Source: Zwartia hollandica (lineage in GTDB: Bacteria > Pseudomonadota > Gammaproteobacteria > Burkholderiales > Burkholderiaceae_B). From it: a DNA stretch of 64,000 bases. Below, piece after piece: positions 7,655 to 13,163 of the stretch (position 1 is its first letter; every line of letters begins with the position of its first letter). The DNA lies in the NCBI RefSeq assembly GCF_019923725.1, contig NZ_JAHXRI010000006.1, positions 811,696-875,695 on the forward strand, written 5' to 3'. The position numbers and the translations under genes are program-made. The notes beneath the pieces were generated by a model. It ran no database searches. It was given only the letters and a program-made list of their open reading frames with translations, and had not been told where the DNA came from.

Positions 7655-7899
7655 GGCTTAGCTCCTAAACGCTCAATGGCAAGAAGGACTTGTCGAACTT
7701 GATAAGCCTTTGCCTTTCCTTTGTTGTTCTGAATATTGACCCTCGGATTTCCAGGTCATGGCGTTTTGTAGATGGCGTGACTGCTGCCGTTTTGCCTAGG
7801 TTTTCCAAAATAGGTTTCACACACACGTTGTAGCTCGGAAAAGCGCGCATTGGCAGGCTCAGTGCGCATTTGTTCGAGAATTTTTCCAACTGTACTCAT
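7651..7899 (-). pseudogene. hicA: HicA-like mRNA interferase toxin with an in-frame TGA
   Basis: An 82-codon HicA-type frame runs from ATG 7897-7899 to a TGA at 7651-7653 that overlaps the hicB ATG. The N-terminal half (codons 1-47) ends in GSSHAIYKTP, which carries the histidine region of HicA toxins. Codon 48 (7756-7758) is TGA, where relatives usually have tryptophan (TGG). The same frame then continues with recognisable HicA sequence, PGNPRVNIQNNKGKAKAY, to the true end. A single G-to-A change therefore explains the break, with no frameshift. Without readthrough the product is a 47-residue fragment and probably inactive. A sequencing error is the main alternative. Confidence 0.8.
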
Positions 7900-8870: not shown

Positions 8871-9284
8871 TTAGTGGTTGTTGACCCAGTTTTCTACAAC
8901 CAGCCCAGCGTAGTTCACAAAGTCTGCTTCGTTGTTGGTGACCAGTTTCGCGTCAAGAGCAATGGCATGTGAGGCAATGAGTTTATCCAGTGCATCACGG
9001 TTGCGATCTTTGTACGTGGCACGAATCGGTCCGTAGGCTTTGGCCGCCTGAGCTTCAAAGGGCGCCACCAGAATGTCTTCGAGCAAACTGTCGAGCGCCG
9101 AGCGGTTTACAACTTGCGATGTTGCACTACTGCGAGCAATGCCGAACTCAAGCTCTGCTAGGGTGACTGCGGAAATGACAATGTCGCCGACAAAGCAGGC
9201 GGCAAAGCGCTCCCTGACTTCGGGTGGCTGGTGCTTCATAAGGTAGATGCAGATGTTGGTGTCGAGCATGTACTTTGGACTCAT
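8871..9284 (-). CDS. vapC: VapC-type PIN-domain toxin
   Basis: Ribonuclease toxin of a type II VapBC module. The 137 aa PIN domain shows the acidic metal-binding set: YMLDTNICIYLM at the N-terminus, a central Glu in TLAELEFGIA, DALDKLIASHA, and the late NNEADF. The ATG overlaps the vapB stop as ATGA, so toxin translation is coupled to the antitoxin. All expected active-site acids are present and the frame is intact, so unlike the neighbouring HicA it should be functional. Confidence 0.9.
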   Translation of the reverse strand: MSPKYMLDTNICIYLMKHQPPEVRERFAACFVGDIVISAVTLAELEFGIARSSATSQVVNRSALDSLLEDILVAPFEAQAAKAYGPIRATYKDRNRDALDKLIASHAIALDAKLVTNNEADFVNYAGLVVENWVNNH

Positions 9285-12359: not shown

Positions 12360-12390
12360 AAAAAAAGCCTGAGGTTTCAGCACCTCAGGC
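12360..12390 (-). terminator. rho-independent terminator after mini-gene 1 (repeat copy C)
   Basis: Perfect 8-bp stem GCCTGAGG/CCTCAGGC with an 8-base loop (12367-12390), followed on the minus strand by seven T (12366-12360). It lies 24 bp after the stop of the 42-residue mini-gene and is the best formed copy of the dispersed repeat, whose tail extends to about 12413. A canonical terminator here supports real transcription of the mini-gene. Confidence 0.75.
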
Positions 12391-12414
12391 GGTTTGTGAT
12401 GCTGTCAGTAATGG

Positions 12415-12543
12415 CTAAGAAACACAGTAAGTTTGAAGGTTGAGCCAGCTACCTTGTGCATAAGCCATCCCACCAACGGCAGCCAGCTCCAGCGCATCGT
12501 CAGAAACATCCTGTACAACAACTTCATTCAGTTCAATGTTCAT
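12415..12543 (-). CDS. RiPP-precursor-like mini-protein 1 (42 aa)
   Basis: Short gene starting ATG 12541-12543 with TTGGAG ahead of it, ending TAG, followed by a terminator. The acidic N-terminal half (MNIELNEVVVQDVSDDALE, then LAAVGG) looks like a leader with a double-glycine-like end. The remaining 17 residues contain Ser, Thr, Cys, Trp and two Tyr and end TYCVS. A second gene of exactly the same length at 12975-13103 shares 14 of the first 22 residues. At those 14 identical residues 7 codons differ only synonymously, which suggests selection on the leader protein. No modifying enzyme, protease-exporter or immunity gene is seen nearby. The RiPP reading is inference; a non-RiPP small protein is possible. 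Confidence 0.6.
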   Translation of the reverse strand: MNIELNEVVVQDVSDDALELAAVGGMAYAQGSWLNLQTYCVS

Positions 12544-12974
12544 CGCAAACTCCAAGGTTGAGGATTACCGGTCAGCAGTGGCTAACAAGCCCAAGGCATT
12601 TAAAAATACCTCCTTCACTTTAAATCCCCAATGTGTCGCGCGTCAATGAATATGTCCGTGCATTTGTGTGCAATCGGCCCTCCCACTGTAAGTTGAAGGC
12701 GTGGTTGAGCACCGAAGCTGAGTTAGCTTGGTTGGGTATTGCCCCATTAATAGCGTTATGTGTGATTTTCTAGCGCTTACGCCAGTGTCTCGCCCGAAAC
12801 TAGGACAGGTCAGAGCCGCTCTGGTTGGAGTGTGGGATGAAGGATGACATTTTTAGTGACTGATACAGACAAGAAACAGGCACCTCGTGACATGCACCGG
12901 AGCGAATGCGGTCTATCGACAAGCAAGATGTCGGACATTCGCTATCATCGATAGCGATCAACCCATGTGCATAA
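12544..12974. other. gap between the two mini-genes
   Basis: About 430 bp with no gene I can support apart from the 5-codon ORF. A 72-codon frame on the minus strand (12800-13018) overlaps mini-gene 2 in another frame; it is rich in His, Ser and Cys but has no family likeness. This may be decayed DNA, or the frame-shifted remainder of a longer ancestral core. Confidence 0.4.
12582..12615 (-). promoter_or_regulatory. perfect ribosome binding site with a 5-codon ORF
   Basis: AAGGAGGT (12615-12608) is a full anti-16S match, 8 bases before an ATG (12597-12599) that opens only MPWAC and a TAG. It lies 38 bp upstream of mini-gene 1. It could be a leader micro-ORF that tunes the mini-gene, or the start of a lost gene. 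Confidence 0.4.
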
Positions 12975-13103
12975 TCAGAAACATGAACGTGAGCGTGCGG
13001 CGCCAGTCCAGCATACATTCCATCTCTGTTCGCTACCGGCGGCCTGTTCTAGCGCAGCGTCAGGTATATCTTGTGCAGTGATTTCATCGAGTTCGATATT
13101 CAT
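12975..13103 (-). CDS. RiPP-precursor-like mini-protein 2 (42 aa)
   Basis: Paralogue of mini-protein 1, in the same orientation and 431 bp upstream of it. ATG 13101-13103 follows CTTGGAG, a block also present before copy 1. The leader half is MNIELDEITAQDIPDAALE then QAAG. The C-terminal half differs completely: it has two Trp and two Cys, with RWNVCWTG in the middle and SRSCF at the end. A conserved leader with a diverged core is the classic pattern of ribosomally made, modified peptides. It starts 60 bp after the malic enzyme stop, with a TTGACG -35-like box in between. A frameshift joining it to the overlapping 72-codon frame is the main alternative reading. Confidence 0.6.
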   Translation of the reverse strand: MNIELDEITAQDIPDAALEQAAGSEQRWNVCWTGAARSRSCF

Positions 13104-13163
13104 GAAAATACTCCAAGGATAAAGACCAAATTCATACTCTAGAAGAAATGCGCTAGCGTCAAA

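Follow-up and report, generated by a model that had tools for sequence, protein, structure and literature searches.

Two paralogous genes in the Zwartia hollandica window

The window, by which we mean the whole 64,000-nt stretch of Zwartia hollandica DNA analysed here, contains two intact minus-strand ORFs, P0001 (12415–12543) and P0002 (12975–13103), each encoding 42 aa, just as a first-pass annotation of the sequence had described them. P0002 starts 60 nt past the stop codon of the malic enzyme gene. Both genes indeed share a CTTGGAG ribosome-binding site 6–7 nt before the ATG (minus strand, 12550–12556 for P0001 and 13111–13117 for P0002, as read from the sequence); that of P0001 is common to most of the 80 precursor upstream regions considered below. 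The N-terminal likeness is also as described, with 14 of the first 22 residues identical and half of these (7/14) encoded by differing synonymous codons. The leader of P0001 comprises approximately residues 1–25 and its core is ...AYAQGSWLNLQTYCVS; the leader of P0002 is more divergent and its core is ...QRWNVCWTGAARSRSCF. P0001 is bounded by two minus-strand copies of a 26-nt linker: the upstream copy (TGTTAGCCACTGCTGACCGGTAATCC; 12562–12587) was recognized from the sequence and with a linker matrix, and the downstream copy (12395–12420, ends approximate, by reading of the sequence) starts at the last codon and stop of the gene. Beyond it, P0001 has the intrinsic terminator that had been noted for one of the copies, a 9-bp stem followed by TTTTTTT at 12390–12367 on the minus strand. 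A weak promoter-like site upstream of P0001 (12617–12646, minus strand; 9/12 matches with an 18-nt spacer) is not above chance, given that two such sites were found where 1.1 were expected.

Neither peptide matches a Pfam or NCBIfam family at E values up to 10. A leader HMM trained on 67 leaders, all from genomes other than this one, gives P0001 55.9 bits and P0002 43.8 bits; in the search of 16,772 small ORFs, the top match with E > 0.001 scores 12.9 bits and corresponds to an internal start within another precursor. The kinship of P0001 and P0002 is far beyond chance. The core of P0001 recurs in four precursors of three genomes, G241 (two), G243 and G244. P0002 is the more divergent copy, with no close core relative among the 80 precursors and no linker flanks, and it may be one of the weaker family members. 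These same features, together with the occurrence in relatives of copies lacking an ATG start and the failure to find an above-chance promoter at P0001, would suit the view that the copies in the window are decaying and unexpressed relics, most of all P0002, and that the working precursors lie elsewhere; we regard this as very improbable, as both ORFs are intact and preceded by a ribosome site, P0001 has a terminator and its core is conserved in three other genomes.

Comparison at the malic enzyme locus, which was found in 9 of 32 genomes of the genus, was uninformative: the 1.5 kb beyond it bears no relation to the window in any of the seven relatives inspected and contains no leader-like ORF on the same strand. 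A conserved 5' hairpin was considered, but we propose no RNA element, as only one of four folded regions clearly beat its shuffles (z −2.9; P0001, z −0.75). Elsewhere in the window, a 137-aa minus-strand ORF (8871–9284), starting MSPKYMLDTNICIYLMKH, resembles a VapC-type PIN-domain toxin.

A precursor family with constant leader and hypervariable cores

The Z. hollandica genome (G000; 3.22 Mb, 25 contigs, 99.7% complete) contains nine family members at four sites: the minus-strand pair in the window, a trio on contig C22 (987–988 kb), a further trio downstream of moaC on contig C2 (413–414 kb) and a single precursor, also on C2 (69 kb). A leader HMM made without the sequences of this genome recovers all nine. 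The homology search that had been proposed as a check revealed leader homologues elsewhere, with 88 matches in 19 of 268 genomes of the taxonomic family, namely 17 of the 32 from the window's genus and two from another genus; these are stand-alone small genes and not fragments of a larger one. We kept 80 precursors, requiring an ATG or GTG start and a stop within the DNA retrieved; the eight matches left out comprise three with CTG, one with ATA and one with TTG at the start, two cut by a contig end, and G243:C167. Copies in which TTG, CTG (three) or ATA replaces the ATG (L064, L067, L070, L079 and L057) are probably decaying genes or genes with alternative starts. A pattern scan of one genome per species across 84,980 species, in which the window's own record was possibly excluded, found 44 loci, of which one is from Zwartia vadi IMCC34845 and the other 43 carry MAG titles, and no relatives of the precursors were found on viral contigs. 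The genomes are mostly MAGs, and absences may, therefore, be assembly gaps. Several MAG records (L084, L085, L088 and others) are titled Bordetella parapertussis, yet they group with the genus Zwartia; these titles look like wrong labels.

The leader is constant, with 24 residues (MNIELDEVVVQDVSDDALELAAGG), and the cores are hypervariable; the consensus is MNIELDEVVVQDVSDDALELAAGGAQGG. Among the 75 leaders of standard length, E4, L18 and E19 are invariant, and the mean pairwise dN/dS, restricted to this set, is 0.15, implying that the peptide is selected; the selection suspected from the codon usage of the window pair is, thus, purifying. The 80 precursors fall into 69 core clusters, 61 of them singletons, and the median pairwise core score equals that of shuffled cores, extending to the whole family the pattern of constant leader and variable core first suggested for the pair. 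The nine precursors of Z. hollandica have nine different cores; besides that of P0001, seven cores are each common to two genomes. All 80 cores contain Cys, which accounts for 134 of 1751 post-leader residues versus 0 of 1757 in the leaders, and all 80 have a Ser or Thr N-terminal to the last Cys, compared with 48% of 4209 decoy small ORFs from the same loci. The leader terminates in a double-Gly-like end, with Gly at position 23 in 66/75 and at position 24 in 59/75. In class II leaders, a double-Gly motif and the combination of Glu/Asp at −8 with Leu/Met at −7 are frequent, according to the available part of PMC7268733. When numbered from Gly24, all 75 leaders have Leu at −7; the Asp/Glu at −8 is missing, with Ala in its place in 68/75, and this counts against a lanthipeptide reading.

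A single LanM encoded apart from the precursors

In 11 loci of relatives, an ORF of ~1073 aa lies 0.1–1.1 kb from a precursor, and L159 provides a twelfth case; Pfam, tested on L060, places this ORF above cut-off as a LanM (PF13575 and PF05147). LanM, one of the enzymes that the first-pass annotation had advised looking for, is, thus, present among the precursor neighbours, albeit in relatives. Z. hollandica has exactly one LanM (C23:541133–544351), which is intact and 67% identical to the query; it was found only on contig C23, away from the precursors, and there is no precursor within the 19 kb read around it. The assertion that the window itself holds no modification enzyme or exporter stands for the two kinds searched, LanM and the C39 peptidase domain. 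With the LanM on another contig, the window genes would be missed by mining confined to enzyme neighbourhoods.

Across the 32 genomes of the genus, 15 have both precursors and LanM, two have precursors only, one has LanM only and 14 have neither (p = 7e-6), and among the 18 with completeness of 90% or more and contamination of 5% or less the corresponding numbers are seven, one, zero and 10 (p = 3e-4), both p-values treating related species as independent, which they are not. Three genomes count against the association: G244 (94% complete), with 10 precursor matches and no LanM found, is a real exception; G260 has five precursor matches and no LanM was found; and G242 has pieces of LanM with no precursor found. 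Elsewhere in the order, LanM was found in four of 398 other genomes drawn (E < 1e-30), at 26–29% identity. The leaders of orphan and LanM-adjacent precursors fit one profile. Moreover, two orphan precursors of Z. hollandica have counterparts in G258 (L159) with an identical or almost identical core, and there they lie 235–394 nt from the LanM; the Z. hollandica cores are KYSVAWNYYCG (L010:7097) and ...LGWPYHC (L010:7537).

Aligned with LicM2 and CylM, the cyclase of the Z. hollandica LanM reads WCHG...LCCG, and its dehydratase domain retains the residues that we take to be catalytic. LCCG is present in 15/15 close LanMs, the motif set being completed by one divergent paralogue, with the incomplete copies of G250 and G242 left out. 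The CCG motif denotes three Cys zinc ligands and is a mark of ProcM-type enzymes (PMC10027976, PMC10783134 and PMC13060382, in the parts available). In a small FastTree phylogeny, with long branches and 6/16 family LanMs included, these share one half of the tree with the CCG enzymes from Nostoc, haloarchaea, a Streptomyces and G226, and the five CHG enzymes lie apart; two cyanobacterial rows in the CCG half are without the ligand motifs. A second, divergent LanM, 32% identical to that of Z. hollandica, occurs at L170:379–3408 (G070:C135); it has kept the WCHG/LCCG cyclase motifs and lost the dehydratase motifs, and is perhaps a cyclase-only LanM.

We consider it very probable that P0001 and P0002 are class II lanthipeptide precursors, with one promiscuous LanM presumably acting on them in trans. 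The earlier proposal of RiPP precursors served in trans gains support from the single Z. hollandica LanM being encoded apart from the precursors; cyclisation is a predicted outcome. The shared leader would recruit the LanM in trans, and the enzyme would dehydrate Ser and Thr residues of the core and close thioether rings onto its Cys residues. One promiscuous LanM acting upon many variable cores would, as for ProcM, generate a library of small cyclic peptides.

Linkers and cassette-like turnover

The 26-nt linker (TGTTAGCTATTGCTGACCGGTAACCC) was scored at a threshold that 0.1% of 5000 background windows pass. Of the 80 precursors, 55 have it upstream, 49 downstream, 38 on both sides and 14 on neither; the upstream count is partly circular, since the matrix was built from 49 upstream copies, and within arrays one linker may count for two genes. 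An alignment of upstream stretches used 38 of 79. For the 56 genes without another precursor within 300 nt, the linker is on both sides in 21. Among the nine Z. hollandica members, four have it both upstream and downstream, namely P0001 and the three genes on C22; two have it downstream only, and it is on neither side of P0002, the L011 gene and the last gene of L010. In many cases, the last codon and stop of the gene form the start of the downstream copy, and 28/80 genes end TGT-TAG; the presence of Cys within the last three residues of 66/80 precursors, versus 11% of the 4209 decoy ORFs, is, therefore, partly due to the linker. A few genes run through the downstream linker in another frame, ending like ...VLAIADR.

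Repetition of the non-coding flanks on this scale, with a 3' repeat additionally found at seven places in Z. hollandica, is what would be expected if the family were a repeated DNA element with an incidental ORF. We give this almost no credence: the dN/dS of the leaders, the Cys in every core and the co-occurrence with LanM all oppose it, as does the codon pattern. Rather, we favour genuine precursor genes, many of which lie between linker copies. At L010:6788–6813 in Z. hollandica, a single linker lies between promoter-side sequence and the terminator-side repeat, and the gene is missing, and C18 (~1398–1461) resembles this empty unit in a more decayed state. The simplest reading of such units, which rests on these two places, would be gene loss through recombination between flanking linkers, and they suggest a cassette-like gain and loss of precursor genes. 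At the moaC site, precursors lie within 0.8 kb in four genomes (L010, L047, L072 and L076) and their cores differ. It may be, though this we propose less firmly, that linker-flanked cassettes are the units in which the precursor repertoire turns over.

Beyond the first two precursor units, there is a repeat (92%) of the 3' end of moaC (L010:6500–6559 and 7798–7857), resembling a duplication made on insertion. A tyrosine recombinase gene (PF00589; L009:8641–9780) adjoins the C22 precursor trio, and an ORF that is integrase-like by eye (L042:363–1604) lies near the ten-gene array of G240; some precursor arrays may be on integrative elements. A reading of the repeats as integron attC sites was considered by eye only and dropped.

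Leader removal, export and tailoring

The C39 peptidase suggested as a neighbour to look for was not found: PF03412 gave no match in Z. hollandica and matches in only two of the 32 genomes of the genus, G239 (without LanM) and G267, in a search that was positive in 8/14 control genomes. G267 is the only one of the 16 LanM-positive genomes with such a match, and this counts against our reading. It follows that leader removal and export would take place in another way, or that the peptides stay inside the cell; a non-C39 route may be envisaged, again with less assurance. The double-Gly-like end of the leader could also be taken to indicate unmodified double-glycine peptides, microcin- or signal-like and perhaps disulfide-bonded, with LanM serving only the adjacent precursors, and G244, which has precursors without a detected LanM, fits such a scheme. 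Unmodified double-glycine peptides, however, usually need a C39 peptidase-exporter, precisely the component not found in Z. hollandica; moreover, precursors and LanM co-occur, orphan and LanM-adjacent leaders form one profile, and two Z. hollandica orphan cores reappear beside LanM in G258, leaving the scheme with little likelihood.

In six loci, a gene of ~300 aa lies between precursor and LanM and encodes a GNAT acetyltransferase (PF00583, above cut-off). The GNAT gene is present in 7/32 genomes of the genus, all LanM-positive (one is a contig-edge fragment), and was not found in Z. hollandica; in Zwartia vadi (G267:C11, 210162–210736; L061:10162–10736), it is broken by stops and the LanM is open, the one precursor detected in that species lying next to this LanM. 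It could provide an optional tailoring step, as in the nostolysamides. An AurF-like diiron oxygenase gene follows a precursor in two genomes, at L011:7005–8248 (G000:C2) and L050:8465–9709 (G241:C18), the match to PF11583 scoring 23.3 bits, below the cut-off of 29.6. The two precursors preceding it share the conserved core NYT..KSYAGCNC, and the surrounding genes also match between the loci; the oxygenase could be a dedicated tailoring enzyme, or its position beside the precursor may be mere synteny.

A fuller picture, which we offer tentatively and think rather doubtful in its entirety, is that of a trans-acting lanthipeptide library in freshwater Gram-negatives, in which linker-bounded genes, often with the final Cys codon and stop provided by the downstream linker, would be mobile as cassettes. 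Cores would be gained, exchanged or lost through recombination at the linkers, one promiscuous LanM would process the products and a non-C39 route would serve leader removal and export. As to their role, we would guess at secreted products that act on neighbouring microbes as signals or antagonists.

Comparison with known systems

A search of the open-licence literature, with subscription papers mostly outside it, brought up nothing on lanthipeptides for Zwartia, GKS98 or Alcaligenaceae, and the terms lanthipeptide, RiPP and antiSMASH do not occur in the available part of the Z. vadi paper (PMC10535154). In the portions of the cited articles available to us, prochlorosin-like clusters were described in 2023 as so far unique in having a highly promiscuous CCG LanM that matures diverse sequences (PMC10027976), and a 2025 review reports homologous clusters as estimated in alpha- and gamma-proteobacteria (PMC12328550). 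The family described here would add a second, distant setting, freshwater betaproteobacteria including the named isolate Zwartia vadi, for asking what such peptide libraries do, a new candidate for a substrate-tolerant LanM, paired with leaders that are unusually short, and a DNA mechanism by which cores may turn over.

The nostolysamides and selidamides combine a LanM with a GNAT acyltransferase, comparable to the GNAT between precursor and LanM in the six loci above; in what is accessible of PMC13060382, NpuM belongs to the ProcM clade, with three Cys ligands, and NpuN is a tandem GNAT. Unlike in those systems, the Zwartia-type GNAT is confined to a minority of the genus; its gene is interrupted in Z. 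vadi, and none was found in Z. hollandica. The closest LanM named in a plasmid collection, from a plasmid of Nostoc sp. ATCC 53789, is a CCG enzyme with 32% identity over the full length; in the stretch shown, it is clustered with one annotated Nif11 precursor, a C39-type transporter and HlyD.

The strongest resemblance is to the prochlorosins, ProcM/ProcA of Prochlorococcus MIT9313 and SyncM/SyncA of marine Synechococcus, where likewise one CCG LanM is accompanied by many dispersed precursors with a conserved leader and a hypervariable core (PMC10027976 and PMC10783134, as far as their available text extends). By analogy, we infer that the Zwartia system works like the prochlorosins, with one LanM and a trans-acting logic. 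There are clear differences: the leader has ~24 residues versus ~60 in the prochlorosins, and C39 transporters occur near the Synechococcus clusters whereas they are missing from 30/32 genomes of the Zwartia genus (prochlorosin details from the same part of PMC10783134); the peptides match neither Nif11, the prochlorosin leader type, nor any other Pfam family; the genes are linker-flanked; and the host is a betaproteobacterium and not an ocean cyanobacterium. Because of the lack of a Nif11 match, a leader of under half the length and the missing C39 transporter, we do not file the family as prochlorosins; it is, on its predicted features, a betaproteobacterial branch of the class II lanthipeptide precursors that has a short leader and is accompanied by a ProcM-like LanM.
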